Origin: Dechloromonas sp.
GTDB lineage: Bacteria; Pseudomonadota; Gammaproteobacteria; Burkholderiales; Rhodocyclaceae
Assembly (NCBI GenBank): GCA_028689015.1
Contig: JAQTXC010000014.1
Span: 1 to 56,124, forward strand
Length of the DNA stretch: 56,124 nt
Direction: 5' to 3'
The translations under genes were made by a program, and so were the position numbers. Positions 1-47,639 of this stretch are shown in pieces. Below the pieces are notes generated by a model, which was not told the origin of the DNA, did not search any database, and was given only the letters and a program-made list of their open reading frames with translations. Within the stretch, counting starts at the first letter, position 1; each line of letters starts with the position of its first letter.

Positions 1-116
1 AACAGCCCTTGGGCGCGGCTCACCTCGGCCATTGGGTTAGCCAGTGCTGCCAGATCGAAGCGCCAGTTCGGCCAGTCACTGAACTGCCAGATATATTCGT
101 AATCGCCGCTATTCAT
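1..116 (-). CDS. Fic family protein, N-terminal fragment (runs off the window)
   Basis: Reading the minus strand from an ATG at 116 gives 38 codons open to the window edge, starting MNSGDYEYIWQFSDWPNWRF and continuing to AEVSRAQGL. The pattern YIWQ..DWP.....D...L......V...QG is the hallmark of the DUF4172 domain at the N-terminus of many Fic (AMP-transferase type) proteins. The catalytic HPFxxGNGR motif would lie outside the window, so activity cannot be judged. The gene is last of the minus-strand signalling operon, 84 bases after the HD-GYP gene. An in-frame GTG six codons upstream is an alternative start; no clear ribosome binding site is visible. Fic enzymes modify proteins with nucleotide groups, usually AMP; a link to the upstream kinase and cyclase genes is inference. 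Confidence 0.75.
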   Translation of the reverse strand, partial: MNSGDYEYIWQFSDWPNWRFDLAALANPMAEVSRAQGL

Positions 117-200
117 GCGGAGATTATGAATCACAATCGCCGCATGCGCCAAGCTGGCCGTACATCATGCGACGATAAAGGTCGCTCAGCCCACGGCCCG

Positions 201-1787
201 TTAGCAGTCCACCTGCCCGGCATCAAGAAAGGCTTGGCCGTAGCGGCGGTAGACGCCTTGTCTGACGAAGACGTCGTAGAGATCGGGGTCGATGTGGCCG
301 TTGTTTTTGAAGTTTTCAAGTATTTGCATGGCTTGTGACAGCTTCATCGCGTCTTTGTAGGGGCGGTCTTTGGCGGTCAGGGCTTCGAAAATGTCGGCGA
401 TGCCCATCATCCGGGCCTGCCAGCTCATTTCATCGCGCTTCAGGCCGCGCGGGTAGCCGTGGCCGTCCATCCGTTCGTGATGGCCGCCGGCATATTCGGG
501 GACGTTTTTCAGGTGCTTGGGCCAGGGTAGCTGTTCCAGCATGCGGATGGTGGCGACGATGTGGTGGTTGATGGTCTGCCGTTCGTCATACGTCAGCGTG
601 CCAGCGCGGATGGTCAGATTTTCCAGTTCGTTGGCGTCGAGGAAGGGCTGCACGTCTCCGGCCGGGTTACGCCAGCGATAGGTTTGCGCGATGCGTTGAA
701 TGCGGGCGATGTCGTCGTCGTTCATTCTTTCGCTGCCGCGATTGGCCTGCCGAAGAAAGTCACGGTCGACGTCACATTGCCGGCAAAAATCTGCTCGCGC
801 CTGTTCGGCTTCGGCCGTCGGCATGCCGGCAGCAATGCGTTGCCACATCTGGATTTCGGCATCGCGTTTGACGATTTCAAAGCGGGTGTCGATCAGCACG
901 ATGCGGTCGAACAGGGTTTGCAGCTTGGTCGCCTTGTCGACGACATGGACCGGGGTGGTCACCTTGCCGCAGTCATGCATCAGGGCGGCGATATGGAGTT
1001 CGTAGCGGTCTTTGTCGCTGAGTTTGAAATCGGCCAGCGGACCATGGTCGACCGCGTCAACGGCATCGGCCAGCATCATGGTCAGCGCCGGCACACGCTG
1101 GCAGTGGCCGTAGGTGTGGGGTGATTTTTCGTCGATGGCGAGGTTGATCAACTCGATGAAGGATTCGAACAGCTTTTCGAGTTGGGCGACTAGTTGCTGG
1201 TTGGTGAGGGCCACGGCGGCCTGCGAGGCCAGCGACTCGGCCAAGCGCTGGTCAGCCAGCGAGAATTCAACCACCTGGCCAGTTTTCGGGTGAATGGCGT
1301 TGATCAGTTGCATGACGCCGATCAGTTCGCCAGCGTGGTTTTTCATCGGTACGGTGAGAAAGGATTTCGAGCGGTAGCCGCTCGCCGCATCGAAACGCCG
1401 GGTGCCGGAAAAATCAAAACCTTGTGCCGTGTAGGCATCGGCAATATTGACCGTTTTTCCCGATAAGGCGGCGTAGACCGCGACCATGCTGTTATTGGCG
1501 GTGCCGTCCGGCCGGTACAGGGAGAGGTCGGCAAAAACGGGGGAGCCGGTAATCTGGCTGGCCCCGCCAAAGGAAAAACCCAGCGAGTCAGTGCGAACGA
1601 TTTCAAAATGCAGGTGCTGACCATCTTCGGACAAGCGGTACAGCGTGCCGCCGTCCGCGTGGGTGATGCCCTTGGCCGCCAGCAGGATTTTTTCTAGCAA
1701 CAGGTTGATGTTGCGCTGGCTGGACAAGGAGGTGCCGATGTCGTTCAGTTGGTCGAGACGACGAATTAGATCTGCCGAGTTTTCCAC
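201..1787 (-). CDS. GAF-HD-GYP domain protein, probable c-di-GMP phosphodiesterase
   Basis: A 528-residue cytoplasmic protein. Residues about 20-200 form a GAF sensor domain. After a helical linker comes an HD-GYP domain with the metal-binding HD pair at H271-D272 (LMHDCGK) and an intact HHERMDGHGYP signature at 436-446. Between these two motifs is a longer than usual insert (about 290-400) rich in charged residues. HD-GYP proteins hydrolyse c-di-GMP to pGpG/GMP, so the protein is expected to lower c-di-GMP in response to a ligand of the GAF domain. The start is GTG, supported by GGGAAG just upstream; the gene follows the GAF-GspE gene by 11 bases and is clearly in the same operon. The GAF domain resembles the one on the neighbouring ATPase (both have SGYRS/TGYRSR and GVMQLIN/GVIQLIN), suggesting related ligands. 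Confidence 0.93.
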   Translation of the reverse strand: MENSADLIRRLDQLNDIGTSLSSQRNINLLLEKILLAAKGITHADGGTLYRLSEDGQHLHFEIVRTDSLGFSFGGASQITGSPVFADLSLYRPDGTANNSMVAVYAALSGKTVNIADAYTAQGFDFSGTRRFDAASGYRSKSFLTVPMKNHAGELIGVMQLINAIHPKTGQVVEFSLADQRLAESLASQAAVALTNQQLVAQLEKLFESFIELINLAIDEKSPHTYGHCQRVPALTMMLADAVDAVDHGPLADFKLSDKDRYELHIAALMHDCGKVTTPVHVVDKATKLQTLFDRIVLIDTRFEIVKRDAEIQMWQRIAAGMPTAEAEQARADFCRQCDVDRDFLRQANRGSERMNDDDIARIQRIAQTYRWRNPAGDVQPFLDANELENLTIRAGTLTYDERQTINHHIVATIRMLEQLPWPKHLKNVPEYAGGHHERMDGHGYPRGLKRDEMSWQARMMGIADIFEALTAKDRPYKDAMKLSQAMQILENFKNNGHIDPDLYDVFVRQGVYRRYGQAFLDAGQVDC

Positions 1788-1798
1788 AGCACTTCCCT

Positions 1799-4132
1799 TT
1801 ATTTGATGCAGACGGCCCGCACCTGTTTGATATCGGTCACGCCTTGCAAAATTTTCTCGATGCCATCCATTTTCAGGGTACGCATCCCTTCATTAAGCGC
1901 GCAGGCGAGAATTTCGGCAACCCGGGCCTTGTCCTGAATGAGCTTTTTGACCGGCTCGCTGCCGACCAGCAACTCGTGCAAACCCACCCGCCCCTTGTAG
2001 CCGGTTTCACTACAGGTTGGACAGCCGGCGGCTCGGTAGAGTTGAAACGCGCCCTGGGGCGCAAAGTGCTGCCGCCAACGCGCCAGCACGGCTTGTCGCG
2101 CCGCCTCTGCATCGGCCTGCCAGGCCGGGGTTTGCCGCAATTCGGCCGAATACTCGTCCAACAGGCGCTCAATTTCGGCTGCTTCCGGCGTATAGGCCAC
2201 TTTGCAGTCCTTGCACAGCCGCTTGCCAAGGCGTTGGGCCAGCACCCCCAGCAAGGCGTCGGCAAAATTAAATGGATCCATCCCCATGTCGAGCAGGCGA
2301 ATGACCGACTCGGGCGCCGAGTTGGTATGCAGGGTGGCAAAGACCAGATGGCCGGTCAGCGAGGCTTCAATGCCGATGGCGGTGGTTTCCGGGTCGCGCA
2401 TTTCGCCGACCATGATGATGTCGGGGTCGGCGCGTAAAAAAGCCTTCATCACCGTGGCAAAATCGAGCCCGGCTTTTTTGTTCACCTGCACCTGGCGCAG
2501 GCCTTTCTGGGTAATTTCTACCGGATCTTCAGCCGTCCAGATCTTGGTTTCCGGGGTATTCAGGTGGCCGAGCACCGAATGCAGGGTGGTGGTCTTGCCC
2601 GAGCCGGTTGGTCCACAGACGAAAAACAGACCGTAGGGTTTTTCAACACAACGCCGCAAATTGTCGTAATTGTGTTGCGACAGGCCCAGTTGATCGAGCT
2701 TGATCGGCTCGCCAGCGGCCAGAATGCGCATCACCACATCCTCGACCCCGCCGGCCGTGGGAATGGTCGCCACCCGCAACTCAATGTCGAGCGGGCCGAA
2801 TTTCTTGAACTTGATCTTGCCGTCCTGCGGCCGCCGTTTTTCCGAGATATCTAGATCGCACATGATCTTGAGCCGGGTCACCAGCGGCGAGCGATACGCC
2901 GCCGGAATTTCGATGTAATTGACCAGCGAGCCGTCCTTGCGGAAGCGGATGATGGTCTTTTCCTTGCCGGGCCGTGGTTCGATATGGATGTCGGAGGCGC
3001 CTTGCTGGTAGGCCTCGACGATGATCTTGTTGACCAGGCGAACCAGCTCGTTATCGGCAGCGGCGGACGCCTCATCAGGGTCAGCCGCCTCCGCCCCTTC
3101 TTCACCTTCATCAAGCCCAGAAAGCAGATCATCTACCGAGCCGATATTGGACAGGGCGCCAAAAAACTGGTCGACCGTCTGCTTGAATTCGCTTTGCGTG
3201 CTGACCCGGTAATGAATTTTGCGCTTTGGAAAAACATTCTCGACCACACGGGAAATGCGCAGCCGCTCCGGGTCCGGCGCCATGACCAGCAGGCCGTCGC
3301 TGTTTTCTTCAAGCGGCAGCCAGCCACTGGCGTCGACATAATCCCGCTTGATGTTGCGCAGCAGATCAACCGGCTTCAGACGGTCTGGCCGCATGGGTTC
3401 GTAAGGGACCGCGAAAAACTTTGCCAGGGCCGCACCGATCGTGGCCGGTTTAAGACCGAGGTCACGCACCAGCACATCTTCCAGATCCAAGGCCTGCTCA
3501 CGGGCCATTTTTCGGGCTTTTTCCATGTCGACCGCGGTCAACAGCCCATCGGCAATCAAATGGTCGTAGCGCGAGCGCACCTGAAACGTGGCGCCTTTGC
3601 GTCGTTGTTCGAAGGCGACCGCCAGGGTCTGGGCCAGATCAACGACGCCTTCTTCGGCGGTGTCGGGAAAAGCTTCATCCTTGTGATGGTTGATCAACTG
3701 GATGACGCCCAGCAACTCCCCTGCCTCGCTACTGATTGGCGCCACCAGCATTTGCCGGGAGCGGTAACCGGTGCGACGGTCGACCTCCTGCAAAAACGAT
3801 AATTTGTCGCTATGCCGGCGCAATTCGGCCAGATCGTAAACATCGTGCAGGTTCAAAGTCTTGCGCGTTGCTGCGACATAACCGGCAATGCTCTGCTCGG
3901 AAATCGGCAGGCGGATATCCTTGAAGGAATTCAGGCCGGTTTTGACCTTGGAAATGATGCTCTGCCCATCGTCGGCCAGAACGTAAATGGTCAGGCGATC
4001 GGCGTCGAAGAGTTGGCAGATCTCCTGCGACAATTCGAGCATGATTTCATCCACATTTGCGGCACTGTGAATGCGGTTGGTCACCCGTTGCAGGTTCTTG
4101 AGAAAAAGCAGTCGGAGTTGAATAGTGCTCAT
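1799..4132 (-). CDS. GAF domain-containing GspE/PilB-type secretion ATPase
   Basis: A 777-residue protein (from ATG 4132) combining an N-terminal GAF domain (about 10-180) with a type II secretion/type IV pilus assembly ATPase. Visible motor motifs are the Asp box ASDIHIEP (about 379-386), Walker A GPTGSGKTT (507-515), Walker B DPDIIMVGEMRD, the His box TGHLVFATLHT and a zinc tetracysteine pair CKDC and CPTC near the C-terminus. Residues about 185-330 look like the T2SSE_N domain, followed by a short acidic linker. Such ATPases power pilus extension or secretion, but no secretin or platform gene adjoins it here, so its partner machine must be elsewhere. A GTG at 4147 is an alternative start; ATG 4132 is preferred because GGATGA precedes it. 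It lies between the phosphodiesterase gene and the HD-GYP gene in the same operon. Confidence 0.93.
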   Translation of the reverse strand: MSTIQLRLLFLKNLQRVTNRIHSAANVDEIMLELSQEICQLFDADRLTIYVLADDGQSIISKVKTGLNSFKDIRLPISEQSIAGYVAATRKTLNLHDVYDLAELRRHSDKLSFLQEVDRRTGYRSRQMLVAPISSEAGELLGVIQLINHHKDEAFPDTAEEGVVDLAQTLAVAFEQRRKGATFQVRSRYDHLIADGLLTAVDMEKARKMAREQALDLEDVLVRDLGLKPATIGAALAKFFAVPYEPMRPDRLKPVDLLRNIKRDYVDASGWLPLEENSDGLLVMAPDPERLRISRVVENVFPKRKIHYRVSTQSEFKQTVDQFFGALSNIGSVDDLLSGLDEGEEGAEAADPDEASAAADNELVRLVNKIIVEAYQQGASDIHIEPRPGKEKTIIRFRKDGSLVNYIEIPAAYRSPLVTRLKIMCDLDISEKRRPQDGKIKFKKFGPLDIELRVATIPTAGGVEDVVMRILAAGEPIKLDQLGLSQHNYDNLRRCVEKPYGLFFVCGPTGSGKTTTLHSVLGHLNTPETKIWTAEDPVEITQKGLRQVQVNKKAGLDFATVMKAFLRADPDIIMVGEMRDPETTAIGIEASLTGHLVFATLHTNSAPESVIRLLDMGMDPFNFADALLGVLAQRLGKRLCKDCKVAYTPEAAEIERLLDEYSAELRQTPAWQADAEAARQAVLARWRQHFAPQGAFQLYRAAGCPTCSETGYKGRVGLHELLVGSEPVKKLIQDKARVAEILACALNEGMRTLKMDGIEKILQGVTDIKQVRAVCIK

Positions 4133-4168
4133 CGGTTTTTCATCCACGGCGTCATCGGCGGCAGGCGC

Positions 4169-4942
4169 TCAGAACGCGAACTGCTGCTTGACTTGCAGCA
4201 TGCGCGGCTGAAATTCAGCCAGACAGTGGGCAACTTCAGCCATCGTCAGCTCATCCTGGCCAGGCTTGAGATGGGTGATGTAAATGTCACAGCGTCGCTG
4301 CAGTTGAGCCAATTCGGCGGCCAGCATGTCAGGGCAAAGATGGTACGAAATTTCGGCCAACTGGCGCTGGCGATTGGGAAAGGCGCACTCGATGATCAGG
4401 TAGCGCAGGTTGTCAATCTGGTTAACCGCCTGCCAGAAGGCATCGCACGGCCCGGTATCGCCAGAAAAGACCAGGCTGGCAGCACCGGAATCGAGCCAGT
4501 AACCCACCGCCGGCACCGAGTGATCGACCGGCAAGGGGGTAATTCGCCGCTCGCCCAGCGTGATCGTCTCGCCTGGCAGCACGGCCTGGTAACGCAGGAA
4601 GGGCTGTTCCGGGGTTGGTATTTGTGAAAAATCCGGCCAGATCTGCCAATTGAAAATATGCGAACGCAAGATGTTCAAGACCGCCGCAGTGCCATAAACC
4701 GTCAGCGGCGCCTGCCGGCGCTCGACCACCGTGTCGATCATCAAGGGCAAATGGGCAATGTGATCCAGATGCGTATGAGTAATGAAGACGTGATCGATGG
4801 CCGCCAGTTCGGCAATTTCCAGATCACCCAGGCCGGTGCCGGCATCAATCAGAATATCGTGATCGACCAGCAGCGCCGTGGTGCGCTGCGCAGGACCCCC
4901 GATGCCACCACTACAGCCCAGAACACGCAGTTTCATTGTCAT
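4169..4942 (-). CDS. Metallo-beta-lactamase-fold protein, probable 3',5'-cyclic-nucleotide phosphodiesterase
   Basis: A 257-residue soluble protein with the metallo-beta-lactamase signature HTHLDH at 56-61, an upstream LIDAGTG strand, a GDTGPCD metal-bridging Asp region and a late ITHLKPGQ histidine. The overall pattern, with the THLDHIAHLP motif and no lactamase features, resembles class II cyclic-nucleotide phosphodiesterases (yeast PDE1/Vibrio CpdP type). Its start overlaps the stop of the adenylate cyclase gene as ATGA, which implies translational coupling and fits a role in degrading the cAMP made by that neighbour. That pairing is inference; a general MBL hydrolase is the alternative. 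ATG at 4936 is a second possible start. Confidence 0.8.
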   Translation of the reverse strand: MTMKLRVLGCSGGIGGPAQRTTALLVDHDILIDAGTGLGDLEIAELAAIDHVFITHTHLDHIAHLPLMIDTVVERRQAPLTVYGTAAVLNILRSHIFNWQIWPDFSQIPTPEQPFLRYQAVLPGETITLGERRITPLPVDHSVPAVGYWLDSGAASLVFSGDTGPCDAFWQAVNQIDNLRYLIIECAFPNRQRQLAEISYHLCPDMLAAELAQLQRRCDIYITHLKPGQDELTMAEVAHCLAEFQPRMLQVKQQFAF

Positions 4943-7149
4943 TTGCTCTCAAAATTCGTCACCCCATCCCAATCGGCCGCTAGCGGCTGGTCTTGCAGCT
5001 GCTGCAGACGCTGGGCGTAAAGTGCATATAAAGGGCGCGTTGTATCGGCGGCTCGCAGCCGGGCAAGATGCAACTCGGCGTCATCCCACAAACAGGCGCG
5101 ATAGAGGCGCAAAAAATGATGCCAGGCGGTCAGTGCCGCCTGCTGCTCGGACGTCAGGTCACGCTCCAGGCCGAGCGGCTCGTAAATGGCCACCGGTTCA
5201 GCCTTGCCCTTGACCCGAACGATATCGAGCTCGCGACAGGCCATCTCGGGGAAGGCTTGCCGGGTTACTTGACCGATGAGGATGCCGACGCCGTAAACCT
5301 TGGTCGCCCCCTCCAGGCGCGAGGCCAGATTCACCGCATCTCCCATCACGGTGTAGGCCTTGCGGACTGGCGACCCCATGTCACCCACCGTCACCACGCC
5401 GCTGTTGATGCCGATGCCGATCCGCAGCGAGGGCCAGCCCCGGGCGACGAACGATTCGTTGAGCTGTTGTAACTCGGCCTGCATGGCGAGCGCGGTCAAC
5501 ACCGCATGGCGGGCATTTTCCGGGTCAGCCACCGGCGCCCCCCAAAATGCCATGATGGCATCGCCGATGTATTTGTCGAGCGTTCCCCGCTGTCGCTGGA
5601 TGATCCGGGTCATCGCCCCGAGGTATTCGTTCATCAGTTGGGTCAATTCGCGCGGTGCCATGCCTTCCGACAAGGAGGTGAAGCCGCGAATATCGGCAAA
5701 CAGGATCGTTAGCGCTTCATTCCGGCCATCCATCGAATAACTTTCCGGATCATGCGCCATCTGATCGACCAGTTCTGGCGGCACGTACTGGCCGAACAGC
5801 TCGGAAAACTGGCGTTTGGTCCGCGACTCGACAAAATACCCCCAAGACATGTTGAGCGCGTACAACGACAGAATCAGCAACAGCCATGCCGCCATCGGCA
5901 ACACCAGATTAGCGCTCTGCCACAGCCAGAGATTGAAGCCGACACTGCCTAGCAGCGCCCCCACCGCCAGCAGGCTGGCCCGGAAGGGCGATAGCAAAGG
6001 GAGCAACAGGGCGAGCAGACCGCCCAACACCAGCACGACCAGGCCATCAATGGCCCCAACATAGCCCGGTTTGGCCTTGATGCTGCCCGACAACATGCCG
6101 GCGATCAGATTGGCATGGACTTCAACCCCCGGATAAGCCGCGCCGACCGGCGTCGTCCGCAAATCGTTGAGGCCAGGTGCGCTCGTTCCGACCAGGACGA
6201 TGCGCCCTTCTAGTTGCTCGACAGAAACCTTGCCGTCCAGCACGTCGACCGCGGACAGATAAGGAAAACTGCGCTCGCGACCGCGATAGGGCACCAAGGC
6301 TGCGACGTTGTCATCGACCGGGATGCGCAAGCGGCCACTGGGCGACTCGATATCCAGCCACTCAATGGCCGGACCATCATCGGGAAAACCAGCCTGCAGC
6401 GTGCTTTCGCCAATCAGGTGGCGCAGCATGGCCAGCGACAAGGCCTCGTAATAAGCCCCCTGGTATTCAACGACCAAGGGCACGCGCCGCGCACTGCCAT
6501 CAAAATCGACCATCGGATTGAAATGCCCGGCCCCGGCTGCCTGCGCCTGCAAGACCGGCAGATTGGCACCGTAGCCCGGCCAGCTGACCACCGCCACCTG
6601 CCGACCGGCAAACGCCGCCGCCTCAAGCACTGGCGCCGGCAAGGCACCAGCCTGCCCGGCCTGGGCGGCATTGGTAAAGTAATAACCGAGAATGACAGGC
6701 CGGTCGCGCAGGGTGGCCGCCAACTGACCGTCGTAATCCAGTTGCTTGCGCAACTTGCCGAGCAGCGCCTGGTAACTCGCCTCGTTTTTCAGTTCACGAC
6801 GACCCAGCGCCTCCAGGACCTTGAGCCCCGAACTCTCATCCGGCTCGGCAAACACCACGTCAAAACCGACAATCGCTGCCCGATAATCATCGGTCAATTT
6901 GCGGATCAGGGCCGCCACCTCATCGCGCCCCCAAGGCCAGCGCCCGCGCTGCGCCAGGCTTTTTTCATCAATATCGACAATGACCACCCGCTCGTCGATG
7001 GTATTGGACATGGCTAGACGGACGCGCGCATCGTAAAGATAGGCGTCCAGCGCGCTTAGAAAAGGCAGACGCCAGAAATGACCGGTATGCCCGAGCATGA
7101 CCAGCACGAGCAGACAGCCCAAGACGATACGGACGAGATGCTTGCTCAC
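4939..7149 (-). CDS. CHASE2 domain class III adenylate cyclase
   Basis: A 736-residue membrane protein. One transmembrane helix near residues 7-22 leads to a CHASE2 extracytoplasmic sensor domain (about 30-350, with VVIVDIDEKSL and GRWPW), then about three membrane helices (364-434) and a cytoplasmic class III cyclase domain (about 475-610). Both metal-binding aspartates are present (FADIRGF D486, KYIGD D530), as are the adenine-selecting pair K526 and D604 and the catalytic N607 and R611 in GDAVNLASR. These choices predict ATP to cAMP rather than cGMP. The start is GTG in a GTGA overlap with the FHA gene. The same CHASE2 type is found on the kinase encoded upstream, so both may read the same periplasmic signal. 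Confidence 0.93.
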   Translation of the reverse strand: MSKHLVRIVLGCLLVLVMLGHTGHFWRLPFLSALDAYLYDARVRLAMSNTIDERVVIVDIDEKSLAQRGRWPWGRDEVAALIRKLTDDYRAAIVGFDVVFAEPDESSGLKVLEALGRRELKNEASYQALLGKLRKQLDYDGQLAATLRDRPVILGYYFTNAAQAGQAGALPAPVLEAAAFAGRQVAVVSWPGYGANLPVLQAQAAGAGHFNPMVDFDGSARRVPLVVEYQGAYYEALSLAMLRHLIGESTLQAGFPDDGPAIEWLDIESPSGRLRIPVDDNVAALVPYRGRERSFPYLSAVDVLDGKVSVEQLEGRIVLVGTSAPGLNDLRTTPVGAAYPGVEVHANLIAGMLSGSIKAKPGYVGAIDGLVVLVLGGLLALLLPLLSPFRASLLAVGALLGSVGFNLWLWQSANLVLPMAAWLLLILSLYALNMSWGYFVESRTKRQFSELFGQYVPPELVDQMAHDPESYSMDGRNEALTILFADIRGFTSLSEGMAPRELTQLMNEYLGAMTRIIQRQRGTLDKYIGDAIMAFWGAPVADPENARHAVLTALAMQAELQQLNESFVARGWPSLRIGIGINSGVVTVGDMGSPVRKAYTVMGDAVNLASRLEGATKVYGVGILIGQVTRQAFPEMACRELDIVRVKGKAEPVAIYEPLGLERDLTSEQQAALTAWHHFLRLYRACLWDDAELHLARLRAADTTRPLYALYAQRLQQLQDQPLAADWDGVTNFESK

Positions 7150-7811
7150 GCCTTCAGGAAAAACTCCATTTTGATGCCGGCAATTTCAACCACATCGTGG
7201 TCATCGAGCGGGTAGGCCTGGGCGTCGATGGCGACACCATTCACCAGCGGAAAGCTTTTGCCCTCAACGTGGGTGATGAAATAGCCGTGCGGCCGCTTGG
7301 CAATCACGGCCACCTGCGTTCCCGGTTTACCCAGGGTGGTCAGCGTCTTGGTCAACAGCAGTTCCTTGCCGGCACTCGGGCCGTTCAACAACTGGATGGC
7401 GGCCGGCGGCAAACTGCCGGTCCGCGATACGCTGCCAGACTCTCCAGCCTTGCCAATCTCGCCGAGCGCCAGTTTGTCAGGCCGTTGCAACATGGTTTTA
7501 TCGTGATCGTCCGGTCGAACTGCGGCCTCGGCCATGTATTTCAGGCGGTACTTGCCCAGTTCGATCAAATCGTTGTTGCGCAAAATATGTTTCTTCACCG
7601 ACTGGCCATTAACCAGCGTGCCATTGGTGCTGTTCAAGTCCTCCAGAAAGGAGTCGTTGAGGATAGTCACAATCACCGCGTGCTCGCCGGAAATGGCCAG
7701 ATTGTCGATCTGGATATCGTTCTGCGGCTTGCGGCCAATACTCAGGCGCTCCTTGTCGAGCGCAATTTCCTTCAGGACCAGTCCATCCATGGACAGGATC
7801 AGTTTAGCCAT
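7146..7811 (-). CDS. FHA domain protein with a second, degenerate FHA-like domain
   Basis: A 221-residue soluble protein. Residues about 1-95 form a clear forkhead-associated domain (LSIGRKPQNDIQI, SGEHAVI, LNSTNGTLVNG), which binds phosphothreonine. After a linker, residues about 130-221 show a similar beta-rich pattern (TLGKPGTQVAVI, YFITHVEG, LVNGVAI, DDHDVVEIAGIKMEFF) but lack the canonical SxxH and NG..N arrangement, so this looks like a diverged second FHA copy. The ATG is preceded by GAGGAAGG. It sits between the PP2C phosphatase gene (15 bases away) and the cyclase gene (GTGA overlap), so it probably reads phosphorylation by the neighbouring kinase and passes it to an effector such as the cyclase or ATPase. 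Confidence 0.9.
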   Translation of the reverse strand: MAKLILSMDGLVLKEIALDKERLSIGRKPQNDIQIDNLAISGEHAVIVTILNDSFLEDLNSTNGTLVNGQSVKKHILRNNDLIELGKYRLKYMAEAAVRPDDHDKTMLQRPDKLALGEIGKAGESGSVSRTGSLPPAAIQLLNGPSAGKELLLTKTLTTLGKPGTQVAVIAKRPHGYFITHVEGKSFPLVNGVAIDAQAYPLDDHDVVEIAGIKMEFFLKA

Positions 7812-7826
7812 CTTGCCTTCCTCGAT

Positions 7827-8636
7827 TCACTTCAAAAAAACCTGCAGTGCCTGCCACCAACCGCGCCGCAAGGCAAAATCCCCATCAACCCGCACCACCA
7901 CTACCGAAATATTGTCCCGCCCACCCGCTGCGTTGGCGGCTGCCACCAGAGCGGCCGGCAAGGCACTCCAATCACCCTCGCCATGCTGGATCAACCGGCC
8001 GATCTGGCGATCGTCGAGCATGTCGCTCAAGCCGTCCGAACAAAGCAGCAGCATATCGCCCGACCGAATGTCATGGGTATGGATCTCGACATCGACCCGC
8101 GCCTCAATGCCGAGCGCCCGGGTCACCAGATTGCGATGCTCGGAGCGACGCGCCTCGGCGACTGTCATCATGCCACGATCAATCTGCTCCTGCAGAATCG
8201 AATGATCACGCGTCAATTGCTGCAGTTTTTGATTCCGCCAGCGGTAAAGCCGCGAGTCGCCGACATGTGCGACATGCAGTTGGTTGTCGAGCAACCAGGC
8301 CAGTACCAGTGTCGTTCCCATGCCTTCGTACTGCGGCTGACGATGTGCGGTATTAAAAACAGCCAGATTGGCTGCCTGAATTTCCTCGTCCAAGATACGG
8401 ACCGGGTCACATGAGGACAAATTCTGCCCCGCAGCCCGGTCGAGACGTGCCAGCAAATTGCTGGCCAGCAGATGGGTGGTCATACTGCTCGCCACCTCAC
8501 CCGCCTTGTAGCCTCCCATGCCATCAGCCAGAATGGCCAGCCCGTAGCCCGCGTCCACATAAACCGCATCTTCGTTATGCGAACGCTGCAAGCCGGGGTC
8601 AGAGGCGTAGGCCATGACAATCGCTGGCCGACTCAT
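7827..8636 (-). CDS. PP2C-family serine/threonine protein phosphatase
   Basis: A 269-residue cytoplasmic phosphatase of the bacterial Stp/PrpC type. It has the expected metal-binding and catalytic motifs in order: SHNEDAVYVD, ADGMGGYKAGEVAS, VGDSRLYRWR, SDGLSDML and GRDNISVVVV. These enzymes use two metal ions to remove phosphate from Ser/Thr and normally reverse a partner kinase. The start codon overlaps the kinase stop codon as ATGA, so kinase and phosphatase should be made together. The pair kinase plus PP2C plus FHA is a standard bacterial phosphosignalling unit, also found in type VI secretion clusters; no type VI genes occur here. Confidence 0.94.
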   Translation of the reverse strand: MSRPAIVMAYASDPGLQRSHNEDAVYVDAGYGLAILADGMGGYKAGEVASSMTTHLLASNLLARLDRAAGQNLSSCDPVRILDEEIQAANLAVFNTAHRQPQYEGMGTTLVLAWLLDNQLHVAHVGDSRLYRWRNQKLQQLTRDHSILQEQIDRGMMTVAEARRSEHRNLVTRALGIEARVDVEIHTHDIRSGDMLLLCSDGLSDMLDDRQIGRLIQHGEGDWSALPAALVAAANAAGGRDNISVVVVRVDGDFALRRGWWQALQVFLK

Positions 8637-11152
8637 GCGTTCTCCGCCAGACAGGCCCGTAGCGCATCGGCCATATCGCGACCACGCTGGTAGCGCTGGG
8701 CAAGGTCTTTCTGCAACGCCCGCTCGATGACCGCCAAAGCGCTGGCTGGCAAGTCAGGATTGAACTGGCGAATATCGCTCGGCGCCTCGTTGGCAATGCG
8801 AAACATCAATTGCGCCAGAGAGTCACCGGAAAAAGGCAGTCGACCGCAAGAGAGCTGATACAAGGTCACCCCCAGCGAGAAAAGGTCGGAACGACCGTCG
8901 ATTTTTTTGCCGGCCAGTTGCTCAGGCGACATGTAGGACGGTGTACCCAGCACCATGCCGGTTTTGGTGCGTGAGGCATCCGTGATACGGGCAATACCAA
9001 AGTCGGTCACCTTGACCTGATCGCTGCTCGGCTCGTACATGATGTTGGCCGGCTTGATGTCACGATGAACAACGTGCTGGGCGTGGGCGTAGTCGAGCGC
9101 TTCCGCCACCCGGGCGACAATCGACCAGACCTGAGGGAGCGGCAGCAGCTGGCCAAGCTTGGTCTGCGGCACCAGATCGCGACCGTGCAGGAACTCCATC
9201 GCAATGTAGGCCAGATCCTGCTCCTCGCCGGCATCGTACATGGTGACGATATGCGGATGATTCAGGCGGCCGGCGGTTTCGGCTTCGCGGAAAAAGCGCT
9301 GTTTGACGTCGTCGAGCTCGTCGGCGTCAAACGACTGCGCCAAGGCCATGGTCTTGATCGCCACCACCCGGTTGATCTTCGGGTCGCGCCCCAGATAGAC
9401 CACCCCCATCGCCCCTTTGCCCAACTCCTTTTCAATCAAATAACGGCCAAGCATGGGTTTTTCGACCTGACCGTCACCCAGAATCAATGTCCCACCAGCC
9501 GTCTGACCGCGCGCGCCGGCCAGCATCACGGTGTCCGCCATCTGTTTGGCCCGGGCAATCCGTTGCGCCAGATCGCGGAAACCCAGATCAAAATCAGCGA
9601 CGTAGCGAAATACCGCCTCCGCCTTGTTGAACTGACGCTTGCGCTCGTAATCCAGCCCCAGGTTGTACAAGTTTTCCATTAGCCCCTGGTCCATCGGGCA
9701 CTTGCGAAACTTGTCGAAGGCCATGTCCAGTTGACCCTGCCCCTGAAACGCCAGGCCGAGCATGCGATTGGATTCCGCCGACTCGAAATCGGACCGCTGC
9801 TTGCCACGTTCTGCACTAAGAAAATGCTTGGTCGTCAGCAGCAAGTGCCCCAGCACGCCCAGCACGGCAGCGCTCATCAGCGGCAGCCAGAGGCTGAAGC
9901 GCATCATCAACAGCGCGTGGGTGGCGAGCAGCAGGCTGACCAGCAGGAGCGTGCCCAGCGCACCGGCACCGGCACCCAGGCGCGGCAACAGCACAGCCAG
10001 ATAGAGGCCGACCAGAACGATCGCCGCCAGCGATGCCCAGGGGGCCCAAGGCGGGGTGACGATGAAATGCGCCTGCAGAATGCTGGAAACCGTATGGGCC
10101 AGTGCCAGCACCGGCGCCATGGCCGGCGACACCGGTGTCACCTGCTGATTGCCGACCCCGGCCGCCGTGGCACCAATCAGAACCAGCTTGCCGGCGTATT
10201 TGCTGGCTGGAATTTTGCCGCTCAGCACATCGTAAAAAGAATCGACCTGAAAAGGCGGTCGACCGTCGTGATCACGATAAAAGAAGGGCCACATCCGCGC
10301 CGCCGAATCCGTCACGATATGTAATCGCCCCAGATCGACCGACTGCCCCAGGTTAACCCGCAGGTCAGCCACCCCAAGATTGAGGCTGCGCGCGGCCAGT
10401 TGCAAGGACAAGGCAGGAAACAGACTGTCGTGATACTGAATCAACAAGGGCTCGCTGCGTACCGCACCATCGACATCCAGACTGCTGTTCAAATGACCCA
10501 AGGCCACCGCCGGTTCACCCAGCAGCGCAATCGGCCCTTGCAGGCGCGGCGCGGTCAGGGCATGGCCACCGCCGTCGCTAACCCGAGCAAGGCGGTTGCG
10601 CAGGACAAAATCCGGCAACGGGGCATCCGGCCGGCCCTGGATTTCGCCGAGTTCGAACAACATCGGCAACAAAACAGTGCCCGCCTGGGCATAACTGCGC
10701 GCCAGCCGACGATCGGTATTCAGGGCCGCTTCAGCCTCCTGCAGCAGCAGCGTCAATTCGGCCAATTCCGGCAAGGGCGCCACCGCCTCGGCCTGCCGCT
10801 GATTCACTTGGTCGAGCAGGCGGGTGATGTATTGATACCCGGGGTCGACCTGCGCTTCGGAGAAAAAAATCGTATTGCCGATGGCCTTGGCACCCGCCCC
10901 CGCCAACAAGTCGGTCAGGCGAGCGTGCAGATCGCGCGGCCAGGGCCAGCGGCCGAGATTGGCAATACTGGCGTCGTCAATCGCCACCACCGCAATCTGG
11001 TTGGTCGGGGTCCGCGTCGTCGCCTGCATGGCGAGATCGTAGGCCTTGCGCTCCAGGCTCTGCACCAGATCACTGCCGGCAGCCAGCAGCATGAACAGGC
11101 TGAGCACCAGGCCGAGAAACCAATCCCGTTTCCAGAACACCGTCTGCCCCAT
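8633..11152 (-). CDS. CHASE2 sensor serine/threonine protein kinase
   Basis: An 839-residue membrane kinase with an unusual order. A first membrane helix (about 11-29) is followed by a CHASE2 sensor (about 35-345), three membrane helices (about 370-440), a TPR-like helical region (about 455-535) and, at the C-terminus (about 570-835), a Hanks-type kinase domain. Catalytic elements are complete: glycine loop GKGAMGVV, K600 in VAIK, HRDIKPAN with D698, DFG at 717-719 and the GTPSYMSPEQ activation segment. Many bacterial Ser/Thr kinases place the kinase first; here the periplasmic sensor precedes it. GAGGAGAG lies just before the ATG. This is the first gene of the tightly coupled signalling operon, 73 bases after the ornithine-cyclodeaminase family gene, with which it may be cotranscribed. 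Confidence 0.95.
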   Translation of the reverse strand: MGQTVFWKRDWFLGLVLSLFMLLAAGSDLVQSLERKAYDLAMQATTRTPTNQIAVVAIDDASIANLGRWPWPRDLHARLTDLLAGAGAKAIGNTIFFSEAQVDPGYQYITRLLDQVNQRQAEAVAPLPELAELTLLLQEAEAALNTDRRLARSYAQAGTVLLPMLFELGEIQGRPDAPLPDFVLRNRLARVSDGGGHALTAPRLQGPIALLGEPAVALGHLNSSLDVDGAVRSEPLLIQYHDSLFPALSLQLAARSLNLGVADLRVNLGQSVDLGRLHIVTDSAARMWPFFYRDHDGRPPFQVDSFYDVLSGKIPASKYAGKLVLIGATAAGVGNQQVTPVSPAMAPVLALAHTVSSILQAHFIVTPPWAPWASLAAIVLVGLYLAVLLPRLGAGAGALGTLLLVSLLLATHALLMMRFSLWLPLMSAAVLGVLGHLLLTTKHFLSAERGKQRSDFESAESNRMLGLAFQGQGQLDMAFDKFRKCPMDQGLMENLYNLGLDYERKRQFNKAEAVFRYVADFDLGFRDLAQRIARAKQMADTVMLAGARGQTAGGTLILGDGQVEKPMLGRYLIEKELGKGAMGVVYLGRDPKINRVVAIKTMALAQSFDADELDDVKQRFFREAETAGRLNHPHIVTMYDAGEEQDLAYIAMEFLHGRDLVPQTKLGQLLPLPQVWSIVARVAEALDYAHAQHVVHRDIKPANIMYEPSSDQVKVTDFGIARITDASRTKTGMVLGTPSYMSPEQLAGKKIDGRSDLFSLGVTLYQLSCGRLPFSGDSLAQLMFRIANEAPSDIRQFNPDLPASALAVIERALQKDLAQRYQRGRDMADALRACLAENA
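10255..10266. repeat. GCGGTCGACCGT palindromic word, copy 1
   Basis: Exact copy of a 12-base near-palindrome that recurs at five exact sites in this window. This one lies inside the kinase coding sequence. Confidence 0.6.
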
Positions 11153-11225: not shown

Positions 11226-12188
11226 TCAAACAGCACCGAGCGAAATTTCGCGCCCCAAGCCCTGCTGCCGCGCCGCCTCCAGAACCCGGACGGCAACCGC
11301 CAGGTCCTGAATGGCCAGGCCCTGCGACTCGAACAAGGTGATGGCAGCAGCCTCACGCCGCCCCGCCTGGCGACCGATCAGGATATCGCCCAACTCCACC
11401 AGTTGCCGGGCATGCAAACGCCCCTTCTCCAGACTGGGCTGCAAATCGCCGGCTTCGGCCAAGGCAGTAGCCACCGTATCGACCACAATCAGGTCACAGC
11501 GTTTCAGGCAAGCCTCAGACAGTTCCTGGCGGATCAGGGCGTTGGAGCCGGCCGCATTGATATGCGTGCCTGCCGCCAGCCAGGCGGCATCGAAGAGTGG
11601 CAGGGCCGCCGTTGTGACCGTACCCAGCACGTCGCTATCACGCACCGTCTCCTCAGCACTTGCCGCTGGACGGACCCGTACCCCAGTCAGCTCACTCAAA
11701 CGCGCGCCAAAATCGGCCAGTTTGTCGGCGCGCCGAGCAAAAACCTTAATCTCCCGCAAGGGTAAAGCGGCACACAAGGCCCGGATATGGCCCTCGGCCT
11801 GCCAGCCACTGCCAAAAACACCGGCCACTTGCGCATCACCGCGAGCCAGAGCACGGGCAGCAACACCACTGGCGGCCCCAGTCCGCATCATGCCCAGAAA
11901 ATTGGCTTCAATGAGGGCCTGCAGGCCACCCGTGACGGCGTCATGGAGATGAACGAGAAAACGATTGCCGGATTTGTTGCTGGTATAGGCCTTGTAGCCT
12001 ATGACGCCTTGCGCCGGCAGAGCCCCTTGCAGAATATGCAGCACCGTTTGTGGCAGGCGACTGCGCTGGCGAGGCGTATCGAGCGCCTGCCCCAAGGCCA
12101 GGTCACGATGCGCTGACTCAACGCCCGCTAAAGCCATGTCCGCGGTCAACACCTGCTGAACATCCGTTTCGCTCAGGAATAGCGCCAT
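11226..12188 (-). CDS. Ornithine cyclodeaminase/mu-crystallin family protein
   Basis: A 320-residue soluble protein of the ornithine cyclodeaminase/mu-crystallin fold. It has the N-terminal substrate region (YKAYTSN, FLVHLHDAVTG), the conserved RTGAASGVAA stretch at about 102-111, and a Rossmann dinucleotide-binding motif GVFGSGWQAEGHIRAL. Family members include ornithine cyclodeaminase, alanine dehydrogenase and ketimine reductases. The sequence alone does not settle the substrate, and nothing in the neighbourhood points to proline or arginine metabolism. It lies between the sucCD terminator and the signalling operon on the same strand. Confidence 0.85.
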   Translation of the reverse strand: MALFLSETDVQQVLTADMALAGVESAHRDLALGQALDTPRQRSRLPQTVLHILQGALPAQGVIGYKAYTSNKSGNRFLVHLHDAVTGGLQALIEANFLGMMRTGAASGVAARALARGDAQVAGVFGSGWQAEGHIRALCAALPLREIKVFARRADKLADFGARLSELTGVRVRPAASAEETVRDSDVLGTVTTAALPLFDAAWLAAGTHINAAGSNALIRQELSEACLKRCDLIVVDTVATALAEAGDLQPSLEKGRLHARQLVELGDILIGRQAGRREAAAITLFESQGLAIQDLAVAVRVLEAARQQGLGREISLGAV

Positions 12189-25654: not shown

Positions 25655-27352
25655 ATGATGATGTATCGAGCCCGACCGGAACTACCGGTCTTCGAGCGCA
25701 GCTTTTTTAAACTGCCAGATACGCTCTTACTGGTTTTTGACCAGAATTGGGCGTTGACCCTGATCAGCGACGCTTGGGCAAACACCCTGGGCTACCCAAC
25801 GGAAATCCTGCAATCACGCTCTTTCATCGACCTGTTTCACGATGACGACCGAGCACGCTGCATCGAGCAGGTCCAGCGCCTGCAGCGCGAGGCGCCGACC
25901 TTGCGCTTTGCTTCGCGCTGTAAACGCAGCGACGACAGCTACCTGGGCATTGCCTGGAATATCAGCTTTGATGCCGACAGCGGTTTTTACTATGCCTCGG
26001 CCCACGAAACGGCGCTCAACCTGAATGGCGAAGGCGCCCGTCTGCCTGACATGTTCCTCGATGGCCTGACCGGCCTGCCGAATCGCAGCCTCTTTCTAGA
26101 GCGCCTGCAGCACACCCAGCACCGCGTTCAGCGGCGACCGGACATGCAATACGCCGTGCTGTATTGTGGTGTCGACCGTTTCAAGGTCATCAACCACAGC
26201 CTGGGCCACAGGCAGGGTGACTTGCTGTTGATGGCCGTCGCCAACCTGTTTTATTCGATTATCCGACCGACCGACATGGCCGCCCGAATGAATGGTGACG
26301 AATTCGCCTTGTTGCTCGAAGACATCCGCGACATCAGCTCGACCCTGCAGGTGGTCAACCGCATTCAGCAAAAACTGGTTGTTCCTTTCATGCTCGACAA
26401 GCACGAGGTTTATTGCACCGTCTCATTCGGCATCGTCGCAGGGGATCATGGGAAAAAACCGCCCGAAGAACTGCTGGCCGACGCCAACCTGGCGATGATT
26501 GACGCCAAAAACCAGGGCGGCGGCAGCTACGTGTTGTTTGACAAACAAATGCACGATCGCGCCGTACAGCGACTCGAGCTGGAAATGAACCTGCGCCGGG
26601 CGATCGACAACCACGAATTCGAAGCCTATTACCAACCGATCATGGCTCTGGACAACGGGCGCCTGACCGGTTTCGAAGCCCTGGTCCGCTGGAACCATCC
26701 CGACAAAGGTCTGATTTCACCCGCTGAGTTCATTCCGGTCGCCGAAGAAACCGGCATGATCATCCCCATCGGCCGCCTGATGTTGCACGCCGCTTGCCAA
26801 CAGGCGCAGCAATGGAATACCCACCTCCAACCCGCACAACCGCTCAGCGTCAGCGTCAATATCGCCGCGCGCCAACTCAGCCACCCCGACTTGCTGAATG
26901 ACGTCGCCAGCGCCCTAAGTGGCAGCGGCCTGCCAGCCCATCTGCTCAAGCTGGAAATCACCGAGAGCGGGATGATGGCCAACGCCGATGACGCCATCGA
27001 GCTTCTCGGCAAACTCAGGGCACTCGGCATCCGCCTGATGCTGGATGATTTTGGCACCGGCTATTCATCGCTCAGTTACCTGCACCGCCTGCCAGTGGAC
27101 ACCCTGAAAATCGACCGCAGCTTTGTCCATCGCCTGCACGATCACGAGACCGATCGCCACTTTGTCGAGACCATCGTCGACCTGGCCCACAAGCTAGGCC
27201 ACAGCCTGGTTTGCGAAGGGGTCGAGCAAGCCTGTCAGGCCAGCATTCTCAAGGCCATGGGCGTCGAATTCGCCCAAGGTTATCTGTACTCCCGCCCAGT
27301 AACGGCCAACGAAGCGACCATGTTGATCCTAAACGACACCGGACAAACCTGA
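25655..27352 (+). CDS. PAS-GGDEF-EAL protein, probable c-di-GMP phosphodiesterase with inactive cyclase domain
   Basis: A 565-residue soluble protein. Residues about 15-120 form a PAS-like sensor (LLLVFDQNWALTLISDAW, FIDLFHDDDRA). The GGDEF domain (about 135-295) has NGDEF at 213-217 in place of GGDEF, and INHSLGH in place of the usual INDxxGH, so diguanylate cyclase activity is doubtful. The EAL domain (about 310-555) keeps FEALVRW at 340-346, SVNIAARQL, LEITESGMM, DDFGTGYSSL and LKIDRSFV, all needed for phosphodiesterase activity. Prediction: it degrades c-di-GMP, with the GGDEF domain as a possible GTP-sensing regulator. It converges on the chromate transporter genes with 11 bases between stops. 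Confidence 0.95.
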   Translation: MMMYRARPELPVFERSFFKLPDTLLLVFDQNWALTLISDAWANTLGYPTEILQSRSFIDLFHDDDRARCIEQVQRLQREAPTLRFASRCKRSDDSYLGIAWNISFDADSGFYYASAHETALNLNGEGARLPDMFLDGLTGLPNRSLFLERLQHTQHRVQRRPDMQYAVLYCGVDRFKVINHSLGHRQGDLLLMAVANLFYSIIRPTDMAARMNGDEFALLLEDIRDISSTLQVVNRIQQKLVVPFMLDKHEVYCTVSFGIVAGDHGKKPPEELLADANLAMIDAKNQGGGSYVLFDKQMHDRAVQRLELEMNLRRAIDNHEFEAYYQPIMALDNGRLTGFEALVRWNHPDKGLISPAEFIPVAEETGMIIPIGRLMLHAACQQAQQWNTHLQPAQPLSVSVNIAARQLSHPDLLNDVASALSGSGLPAHLLKLEITESGMMANADDAIELLGKLRALGIRLMLDDFGTGYSSLSYLHRLPVDTLKIDRSFVHRLHDHETDRHFVETIVDLAHKLGHSLVCEGVEQACQASILKAMGVEFAQGYLYSRPVTANEATMLILNDTGQT

Positions 27353-37722: not shown

Positions 37723-37778
37723 ATAAATGACAAAGTAATTATTTGCCAATATCATTCAATAAACCATTTGTCATTTAT
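37723..37778. repeat. Perfect 12-bp inverted repeat bracketing the pilus operon promoter
   Basis: ATAAATGACAAA at 37723-37734 and its exact reverse complement TTTGTCATTTAT at 37767-37778, 32 bases apart (44 bases centre to centre, about four helical turns). The left arm overlaps the predicted -35 box; the right arm ends four bases before the mshL start codon. Candidate paired operator, or an RNA/DNA fold. Confidence 0.65.
37727..37755 (+). promoter_or_regulatory. Predicted sigma70 promoter of the MSHA-like operon
   Basis: ATGACA (37727-37732, five of six to consensus), 17-base spacer, TATCAT (37750-37755, five of six). The predicted start near 37762 leaves a leader of about 20 bases without a purine-rich ribosome binding site. 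Confidence 0.5.
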
Positions 37779-37782
37779 ATCC

Positions 37783-39387: not shown

Positions 39388-39393
39388 AAACCC

Positions 39394-39876
39394 ATGCGCA
39401 AAAACGATCACAAGCCGCATATTTTCATCAGCCTGTGCCTGTGCGGCCTGCTCGGCACCACACAGGCCGGCGAACCGGAGCACAGCGCCGACCGCATTGC
39501 CATTCAGCGCCACGATTGGCTGGCGCCCAGCCTGACCGAACTCGCCGGCCAGCCACCACTCAATCAAATTGGCTTATTGCGCCAACTACAGACACAACAC
39601 CCCACCGACCCCCGCCTGCCCGCCTTGCTAGGCACCTTGCTGGCCCGGCAACAACGCTGGCCAGAAGCCCGCCAAGCCTTTGAAGACGCCCTGCAACTGC
39701 GCCCAGCAGACCCGGACACCCGCTACAACCTGGCGATTTGCCTGGAACACCTCGGGCGACAGGACGAAGCGATCCAGCGTTACCAGCAAGCGCTGCGTCT
39801 GGCCGGCCAATCACCGTTCCGCTTTGAGCAGGCGCAAGTCTGGCAACGCCTGAATGAATTGGCGGCAATACCATGA
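39394..39876 (+). CDS. TPR protein of the MSHA-like operon
   Basis: A 160-residue exported protein with signal peptide (HIFISLCLCGLLGTTQA) and two to three tetratricopeptide repeats in the second half (ALLGTLLARQQRWPEARQAFEDALQLRPADP, YNLAICLEHLGRQDEAIQRYQQAL would be consecutive units). MSHA operons carry a TPR protein, MshN, between secretin and ATPase, so this is its positional equivalent though much shorter. The stop overlaps the mshE ATG. Confidence 0.8.
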   Translation: MRKNDHKPHIFISLCLCGLLGTTQAGEPEHSADRIAIQRHDWLAPSLTELAGQPPLNQIGLLRQLQTQHPTDPRLPALLGTLLARQQRWPEARQAFEDALQLRPADPDTRYNLAICLEHLGRQDEAIQRYQQALRLAGQSPFRFEQAQVWQRLNELAAIP

Positions 39877-41555: not shown

Positions 41556-41558
41556 GCC

Positions 41559-42746: not shown

Positions 42747-42753
42747 GTCCGCG

Positions 42754-44669: not shown

Positions 44670-44995
44670 AGCGTCCGCGCCGCTGGCTGGTACTGTTCTG
44701 CTGCCTGATGCAGCCAGCCCTGGCCGCTCCGCTGGGCCGGCTTTTTTTCACGGCCGAAGAACGACGGGTGATCGAACAACAACAGCCAGCGCGCGACAGC
44801 GCATCACTCGAACTGAACGGCCGCATCCGCTACCCCAATGGCCGTCTTGAATACTGGTTGAACGGCCAGCCGACCTCCCGCCCCGCCTCTCACCACCTGG
44901 CAGTCGGTGACCGCCTGCAGCCCGCCAGCCACACCCGCCAGCCTTTGCTCGGCGACGGCAAAATTCTTTATCAGCCAGGCGGCCCGCAACCATGA
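44666..44995 (+). CDS. Small exported pilus protein (MshK-like)
   Basis: A 109-residue protein with a signal peptide (WLVLFCCLMQPALAA) followed by PLGRLFFTAEERRVIEQQQ, a motif shared by many small proteins of pilus and type II secretion operons (MshK/GspB/PilP surroundings), then a short beta-rich region (LELNGRIRYPNGRLEYWLNG). It overlaps both neighbours by ATGA and probably bridges inner and outer membrane parts. Confidence 0.7.
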   Translation: MKRPRRWLVLFCCLMQPALAAPLGRLFFTAEERRVIEQQQPARDSASLELNGRIRYPNGRLEYWLNGQPTSRPASHHLAVGDRLQPASHTRQPLLGDGKILYQPGGPQP

Positions 44996-47611: not shown

Positions 47612-47639
47612 ATTTTTACCACCACTGAAAGGAAGCACC

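Follow-up and report, generated by a model that had tools for sequence, protein, structure and literature searches.

Introduction

The use of more than one extension motor by type IV pili is known from Acinetobacter baylyi, in which a second, phylogenetically distinct extension ATPase, TfpB, is found beside PilB (PMC8213720). In Pseudomonas, the Pil-Chp/CyaB/Vfr system places type IV pili under the control of cyclic AMP (cAMP) from an adenylate cyclase, acting via a transcription factor (PMC11656802), and transcriptional control of pili by cAMP is also known from other studies (PMC7690835, PMC7076178). The first of these sources, a 2024 review, leaves the role of several PilB homologues to further research, and the terms "GAF" and "FHA" are absent from its main text (PMC11656802). 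A 24-residue receptor motif for cyclic di-GMP (c-di-GMP), RLGxx(LVI)(LVI)xxG(LVI)(LVI)xxxxLxxxLxxQ, has been described for MshEN (PMC5013675), and threonine phosphorylation by PpkA-Fha controls type VI secretion (PMC3953482). Here, these systems are compared with a seven-gene operon that occupies positions 11152 to 201 on the minus strand of a 56,124-nucleotide stretch of Dechloromonas sp. DNA (the window). The window makes up the entire contig G000:C5 of a draft genome of 2.87 Mb.

The seven complete open reading frames (ORFs) each have a named domain above the Pfam cut-off, in agreement with the identities given in a preliminary description of this DNA. They encode a CHASE2 Ser/Thr protein kinase, a PP2C phosphatase, an FHA protein, a CHASE2 adenylate cyclase, a metallo-beta-lactamase-fold (MBL) phosphodiesterase, a motor ATPase with an N-terminal GAF domain, and a GAF-HD-GYP phosphodiesterase. 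We consider it likely, from comparisons of sequence and gene order, that the seven genes serve together as a dedicated unit that controls the extension of type IVa pili, with the GAF ATPase as an extension motor of its own family. The operon would then be a case of a PilB homologue whose gene keeps company, in conserved order, with those of a kinase and of enzymes of cAMP and c-di-GMP, and in many relatives with a pilin gene. If true, no transcription factor would be needed to connect Ser/Thr phosphorylation and cAMP with a pilus motor, and the GAF motor may have displaced PilB in some lineages.

Conservation of the gene order

Related loci were gathered from the genomes of 20 relatives and from the best 80 of 582 scan matches, giving 100 loci; three duplicates were dropped before counts on unique loci, and because of the selection of scan matches, the counts on the resulting 97 loci favour close relatives. 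Gene-neighbour families were assigned by bit-score thresholds of our own. Apart from the own genome, 20 of 59 relatives had a full-length match to the ATPase, at 61-77% identity, and the other ATPases among the matches listed were at most 48% identical, leaving the paralogues cleanly apart. Carriers made up 7 of the 35 same-genus genomes and 13 of the 24 genomes from other families. In a wider draw of the order, 147 of 399 genomes, and 64 of 164 genera, had a match at E 1e-160 or better, a few of these matches being partial. A draw of the class gave matches at 1e-120 or better in 33 of 370 genomes, the own genome and G050 included; the 31 matches from outside the order were 40-61% identical.

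All seven genes stand in line in 12 of the 20 relatives' loci, at 44-78% identity, and in 44 of the 76 unique loci with at least 8.7 kb of upstream sequence; most of the others hold only some of the genes, with their order unchanged. Many betaproteobacteria, across families, share the arrangement kinase-PP2C-FHA-CHASE2 cyclase-MBL phosphodiesterase-GAF ATPase-GAF-HD-GYP, and this synteny is beyond chance. Among free-living isolates, Azospira sp. I13 (L057) carries the full set and Nitrosomonas sp. Nm51 (L111) only MBL-ATPase. The proposal of the preliminary description, that kinase, PP2C and FHA protein, cyclase and phosphodiesterase, HD-GYP protein and motor belong together, is thus supported by synteny, the order being kept across families and not confined to the strain. 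The two CHASE2 genes, those of the kinase and the cyclase, tend to be kept or lost together: of the 76 loci, 48 have both, 19 neither, 8 the cyclase only and 1 the kinase only.

The GAF ATPase as a probable motor of its own family

The ATPase gene (1799..4147, minus strand) encodes a GAF domain (Pfam, 50.8 bits), an MshEN-like segment (40.4 bits) and a T2SSE domain (379.2 bits). The T2SSE domain, Walker A, catalytic boxes and tetracysteine zinc site place the protein in the superfamily of type IV pilus and type II secretion system (T2SS) motors, and GPTGSGKT, GEMRD and C645/C648/C709/C712 were invariant in 21 of 21 GAF ATPases. PilB, TfpB and GspE were each rejected as its identity by their cut-offs. 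The score was 473.3 bits against the NCBIfam model of PilB (TIGR02538, cut-off 675.65; 474.4 and 472.0 bits for two relatives), 405.4 bits against that of TfpB (NF053534, cut-off 850), and 444 bits against that of the T2SS ATPase GspE (TIGR02533, cut-off 630.25). In a maximum-likelihood tree, the order-level GAF ATPases and their class-level kin formed a clade of 40 rows that was separate from PilB and TfpB (support 100/99), within which the 21 order-level GAF ATPases grouped together (100/98). The tree omits L183, one of the 20 class-level rows, and only the unity of these two clades is used from it, because the branches of the outgroup ATPases are long. An AlphaFold model of the ATPase, made from 21 sequences, had a mean pLDDT of 66.4, with the GAF and N-terminal part fair and much of the ATPase part below 50. 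The motor family and its combination with signalling parts look undescribed, the parts themselves being of known kinds.

The own genome also encodes a canonical PilB (831.3 bits), whose gene has a PilC-like neighbour, and a canonical TfpB (907.6 bits), as well as two ATPases above the cut-off of an MshE-related c-di-GMP domain model, one on contig C1 and one in the window at 39873-41555. The latter belongs to an MSHA-like or T2SS-like cluster (37768-48296, plus strand) of a secretin, a TPR protein, the ATPase, a T2SSF protein and two prepilin-type proteins; its c-di-GMP domain scores 54.7 bits for NF053729 (cut-off 38). In three other genomes (G162:C48, G071:C16 and G115:C28), second ATPases were found whose core is 69-74% identical to that of the GAF ATPase and whose GAF end is unmatched, so that the same motor is combined with another N-terminus.

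Pilin adjacency and the absence of PilB in some carriers

The contig end left the likely client of the motor, a pilin, out of sight of the preliminary description. Among the 100 loci, a PilA-type pilin (GFTLIELMIVVAIIGILAA...) gave 55 matches in 44 loci, all of them downstream. For the unique loci, a stricter sequence pattern without an ORF filter was applied to 632 kb of downstream and 289 kb of upstream sequence. Downstream and on the same strand, 40 of 84 loci had a pilA start within 1 kb, namely 34 of the 64 scan loci and 6 of the 20 unselected relatives, and 41 of 67 had one within 5 kb. Upstream, the counts were 0 of 70 within 1 kb and 0 of 23 within 5 kb. The copy in L042 has a Pfam Pilin match. 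In the own genome, where PilQ is above its cut-off, the pilin query revealed a PilA-type N-terminus at C21:3-62, cut by the contig end; a search of this genome with the Pfam pilin model PF00114 gave no match at E 0.01. The truncated PilA start (L145 1-1689, G000:C21) adjoins an AbiEii nucleotidyltransferase/HTH pair.

PilB was searched in 60 genomes, of which 45 had a canonical copy above the cut-off, and PilQ was tested in 13 only. Canonical PilB was missing from 8 of the 20 carrier relatives (G037, G040, G046, G047, G050, G051, G057 and G058; 96-100% complete), in which the best other ATPases scored 488-574 bits against the cut-off of 675.65, and PilQ was above its cut-off in all eight. In three of them, G047, G057 and G058, pilA lies at most 1 kb from the operon (loci L048, L044 and L042). 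Neither canonical PilB nor the GAF ATPase was found in G001, G004 and G022 (70-79% complete), in G052-G054 (no PilQ), and in G036, where an ATPase beside a PilC-like gene, at 591 bits, looks like a diverged PilB. G050, a single contig with PilM and PilQ above their cut-offs, has only two ATPases that match the PilB model at E 1e-100 or better, the GAF ATPase and one beside T2SSF-like and secretin-like genes. The preliminary description had treated the ATPase as generically secretion-type; the adjacency of pilA in relatives and the missing PilB in 8 of 20 carriers point instead to type IVa pili, which the GAF ATPase probably builds.

The ATPase might alternatively power another machine of the superfamily, a T2SS or an MSHA-like pilus, the adjacency of pilA being a coincidence of local genome organisation. 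Its core matches GspE (444 bits) nearly as well as PilB (473), and the window itself contains the MSHA-like or T2SS-like cluster at 37768-48296. That cluster, however, has its own ATPase, the pilA matches are all downstream and none upstream, and eight carriers lack canonical PilB but possess PilQ. GspE is above its cut-off in 7 of the 20 carrier relatives, but neither in the other 13 nor in the own genome, so that type II secretion is disfavoured as a general client. We therefore regard this alternative as unlikely.

In another alternative, the ATPase would serve in signalling or localisation rather than as a motor, and would report the ATP or cAMP state to the pilus or to genes of surface polysaccharide and glycosylation. 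PilB plays such a signalling role for exopolysaccharide (EPS) in Myxococcus (PMC5544727). The regulatory GAF domain and the dense signalling context would suit a subunit of this kind, as would the GT41-type and GT4-type glycosyltransferase genes in the flanks of L043 and L042, respectively, with kin by clustering at other loci. The invariance of Walker A, GEMRD and the tetracysteine site in 21 of 21 sequences speaks against it. Moreover, the carriers without PilB need some pilus-extending enzyme, though in at least G058 there is a TfpB candidate. A role in signalling or localisation in place of that of a motor is, on balance, quite improbable.

Second messengers and the motor

In the preliminary description, phosphorylation and cAMP act on c-di-GMP and on the motor ATPase. 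An action of c-di-GMP on this motor, by a gate on the GAF ATPase, is unsupported: the MshEN motif, in its strict as in its relaxed form, was absent from 21 of 21 order-level GAF ATPases, and the positive control, the own ATPase on C1, gave one strict and one relaxed-only copy. Since the motif is absent from the motor, the HD-GYP protein would have a different target or control a local pool. Among 20 class-level kin, the relaxed motif was present in 11, none of which was among the eight whose match spans the GAF region; a Pfam GAF domain was present in the four of these eight that were tested, and in 0 of 4 other kin tested. The class-level kin (L180-L199) thus fall into two groups, one with a GAF-type N-terminus that lacks the motif and one with a different N-terminus and the relaxed motif; L180, with neither, is the exception.

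For cAMP, the link to the motor may be more direct than was supposed, since relatives of the operon often carry a cyclic nucleotide-binding (cNMP-binding) gene and sequence kinship groups the GAF domains with the cyclic-nucleotide type. In a comparison with the Protein Data Bank (PDB), the best match of the ATPase GAF was the cyclase GAF entry 1ykd (CyaB2; E 9.9e-30), followed by PmGH (4mcw, which we take to be a Persephonella protein), phosphodiesterases (PDEs) 2, 10, 5 and 6, and others. By sequence kinship, this GAF belongs with the cyclic-nucleotide-binding GAFs of CyaB and the PDEs. A gene for a cNMP-binding protein lies between the MBL and ATPase genes in 33 of the 79 unique loci with an in-line MBL gene, and Pfam cNMP_binding and Rhodanese domains were found in all three copies of this intervening gene that were tested. 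An FGEEAL...RNA(S/T)V cassette and a CxxGRRS loop are common to the 34 copies that were aligned. Neither the operon proteins nor the cNMP-rhodanese protein gave a match to a Pfam DNA-binding domain.

The cyclase (4939..7149, minus strand; Pfam CHASE2 195.7 and Guanylate_cyc 80.0 bits) is of class III, and its DKYxGD and AYTxxGD motifs were kept in the 14 displayed rows of 15 aligned. The MBL phosphodiesterase (4169..4942, minus strand; PDEase_II 60.6 bits, cut-off 23.7; Lactamase_B_2) resembles class II cAMP phosphodiesterases, to which it is assigned by its match, and has the metal motif H[TSA]H[LM]DH in 19 of 19 sequences. The GAF-HD-GYP protein (201..1787, minus strand; Pfam HD_5 146.2 and GAF 54.1 bits) has the residues of an HD-GYP c-di-GMP phosphodiesterase, HDCGK and HHERxDGxGY both in 17 of 17 and the final P in 16, and its relative in the PDB is PmGH (4mcw, E 7.4e-28). 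Across the aligned rows displayed, relatives keep the catalytic residues of all five enzymes, namely the kinase, PP2C, the cyclase, the MBL phosphodiesterase and the HD-GYP protein.

The proposed phosphorylation branch

CHASE2 is a periplasmic sensor. The kinase (8633..11152, minus strand) joins CHASE2 (Pfam, 179.4 bits) to a Ser/Thr protein kinase domain (Pkinase, 179.3 bits) by a linker that is TPR-like by our own reading of the alignment, and HRDxKPAN and DFG were kept in 14 of 14 aligned sequences. The phosphatase (7827..8636, minus strand) belongs to the Stp1/IreP family of PP2C enzymes (Pfam PP2C_2; NCBIfam NF033484, 245 bits, cut-off 230). The FHA protein (7146..7811, minus strand) consists of an N-terminal FHA domain (Pfam, 75.2 bits), a Thr-bearing linker and a conserved second half. 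In the alignment of relatives, the linker motif [DE][KRQ]TxxxR, mostly EKTMVLR, was present in 64 of 74 FHA proteins, and the same pattern occurred in 13 of 508 other operon proteins. The FHA preference involves the residue three positions after the phosphothreonine. The linker threonine, T106 (codon 7494..7496, minus strand, in DKTMLQR here), is a natural candidate target of the kinase. The FHA protein was also considered as a part of the threonine phosphorylation pathway of type VI secretion, and this was rejected on its score of 36.1 bits for TagH (cut-off 120.25).

Seven loci whose kinase may lie off the contig were dropped before the presence of the motif was compared with that of the kinase, leaving 67 of the 74 FHA proteins. 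The motif was absent from 2 of 52 loci with a kinase and from 6 of 15 without (Fisher p 0.001, uncorrected for kinship; the six may represent one or two events, and 9 of the 15 kinase-less loci keep the motif).

This association also bears on the view that co-transcription serves expression only, the enzymes of phosphorylation, cAMP and c-di-GMP each having targets of their own. Loci reduced to PP2C-FHA-MBL-ATPase (8 of 76) or to the ATPase alone (3 of 76), and the uneven distance correlations between the seven proteins (0.19 to 0.87, lowest for HD-GYP), speak for this view. On the other hand, the rearranged loci L062 (Noviherbaspirillum), L109 (Undibacterium) and L094 keep the cyclase, HD-GYP and MBL genes beside the ATPase gene, on the other strand and divergent from it, and absence of the FHA linker threonine is more frequent in loci that lack the kinase. 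Independent targets are, accordingly, given very little probability. In L119 (Rugamonas) and L131, the cyclase and HD-GYP genes are divergent from the ATPase gene and the MBL gene is lacking.

A model for the control of pilus extension

In the reading that we favour, two inner-membrane CHASE2 sensors would read a periplasmic cue. One branch would set Ser/Thr phosphorylation, through the opposed kinase and PP2C phosphatase, to be read by the FHA protein, probably via its linker threonine. The other would set cAMP, through the opposed cyclase and MBL phosphodiesterase, with the GAF domains as its readers, joined by the cNMP-binding/rhodanese protein in those relatives that have it. Phosphorylation and cAMP would both act on the GAF-gated type IVa pilus motor, which would drive, or help to drive, polymerisation of the PilA-type pilin encoded after the operon in many relatives. 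The HD-GYP protein would lower c-di-GMP and thereby favour the piliated, motile state. We infer the motor role, the substrates and ligands, the direction of every arrow, and cotranscription.

A bolder version may be suggested tentatively, with rather less confidence than the control unit itself. In it, the GAF ATPases would be a further family of type IVa extension motors after PilB and TfpB, in which the c-di-GMP gate of MshE-type ATPases was exchanged for a GAF gate responsive to the cAMP of the operon, the CHASE2 kinase would switch the FHA adaptor at the threonine of EKTMVLR, and the motor would have taken over from PilB in several betaproteobacterial families. The class-level kin, 11 of 20 with the relaxed motif and none of these among the eight whose match spans the GAF region, would be a trace of such an exchange.

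Several observations weigh against the reading that we favour. Adjacency to pilA is partial, only 6 of the 20 unselected loci having it within 1 kb (4 with a stricter ORF filter). Canonical PilB is present in 12 of the 20 carrier relatives and in the own genome; since most carriers have it, the GAF motor is often an addition. Of the carriers without PilB, G058 has a true TfpB (909.1 bits), a rival motor that may therefore share the work of pilus extension, and in G050 the operon is reduced to MBL-ATPase and a search of about 29 kb to each side of the GAF ATPase gene found none that is PilC-like. The own canonical PilB and TfpB also lack the MshEN c-di-GMP motif, so that its absence alone is not special to the GAF ATPase. 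NKFDE is the motif of cNMP-binding GAFs, and it is incomplete in both GAF domains, that of the ATPase having N and F without K and D, and that of the HD-GYP protein having N, F and D without K and E, which makes cAMP binding hypothetical. The window strain is without the cNMP-rhodanese gene: a search of the own genome gave weak partial matches only, the best at 3.6e-07 over the rhodanese part. Owing to the uneven distance correlations, the seven-gene set need not have evolved as one unit, and the 97-locus counts have the bias towards close relatives described above. Outside the order, 19 of 20 loci around related ATPases are without the operon; two of these, L184 and L192, have a weak cyclase match some kilobases from the ATPase gene. 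In L198 (G535), also from outside the order, MBL and HD-GYP genes are divergent from a GAF ATPase gene of 42% identity, as in Noviherbaspirillum and Undibacterium, and a cyclase match is cut by the end of the stretch.

Operon junctions and neighbouring genes

The seven genes are tightly packed. Overlaps of 4 bases join kinase and PP2C (8633-8636), FHA and cyclase (7146-7149), and cyclase and MBL (4939-4942), and gaps of 15, 21 and 11 bases separate PP2C from FHA, MBL from ATPase, and ATPase from HD-GYP, respectively. The eighth gene of the preliminary description, a partial ORF from 116 to the contig end, matches DUF4172 (E 1.2e-07), which we take to be a Fic-associated domain. It begins 84 bases past the HD-GYP stop, and a tblastn search of the 100 related loci with its 38 residues gave one match at chance level (E 0.83). 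By this gap and the lack of a counterpart, the Fic gene was ruled out as a member of the operon, while the seven complete genes were upheld. Scans for sigma-70 promoters and terminators were at chance (4 found against 3.7 expected, and 14 against 12.3), and thus a single transcript is neither proved nor disproved by them. An Rfam search gave no match.

Upstream of the kinase, at a distance of 73 bases and on the same strand, lies a gene of the ornithine cyclodeaminase/mu-crystallin family (11226-12188, minus strand), with kin at the same place in five same-genus loci (L034-L038; Pfam checked in L035). Elsewhere on the contig, a GGDEF-EAL protein (25655-27352, plus strand) is a possible partner of the c-di-GMP part of the operon. 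The third CHASE2 gene of the genome (G000:C16:17015-18064) also has below-cut-off matches to SpoIIE/SiaA-type phosphatases. In L045, genes for a SlipAM-like outer membrane protein and a FecR protein are inserted between the MBL and ATPase genes (5758-8749). L081 and L125 hold most of the operon, and their labels, Bordetella parapertussis (a metagenome-assembled genome) and Mycobacteriaceae bacterium, look misassigned.

Comparison with known systems

A search of the titles and abstracts of Creative Commons-licensed papers in PubMed Central found no description of the seven-gene set or of its combination with a GAF motor. Like the two-motor pili with TfpB and PilB, the operon would provide a second, distinct extension ATPase beside PilB. 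Unlike TfpB, the GAF ATPase carries a GAF domain and sits in a signalling operon, and its own genome has a true TfpB and a true PilB as well. With MshE-type ATPases (PMC5013675) it shares an MshEN-like N-terminal segment before the ATPase domain, whereas none of the 21 GAF ATPases has the 24-residue motif, and a GAF domain precedes the segment. Together with 4mcw, the solved GAF domains closest to that of the ATPase are those of the tandem-GAF adenylyl cyclase CyaB2 and of PDE2, 5, 6 and 10 (1ykd, 3jab, 2zmf and others); the ATPase GAF differs from these in its incomplete NKFDE motif and in its fusion to a motor ATPase. The HD-GYP protein of the operon has the same domain order and catalytic residues as PmGH, but about 100 extra residues between its HD and GYP halves.

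As in Pil-Chp/CyaB/Vfr, cAMP from an adenylate cyclase would be tied to pili, although the candidate readers here are the GAF domains and the cNMP-rhodanese protein in place of a transcription factor. As in PpkA-Fha, a kinase and an FHA protein would act on an envelope machine, but no type VI secretion gene is among the seven, the FHA protein is below the TagH cut-off, and the sensor of the kinase is CHASE2. Two-motor pili, transcriptional control of pili by cAMP, and threonine phosphorylation of an envelope machine are thus already known, whereas their combination with a GAF motor looks undescribed.

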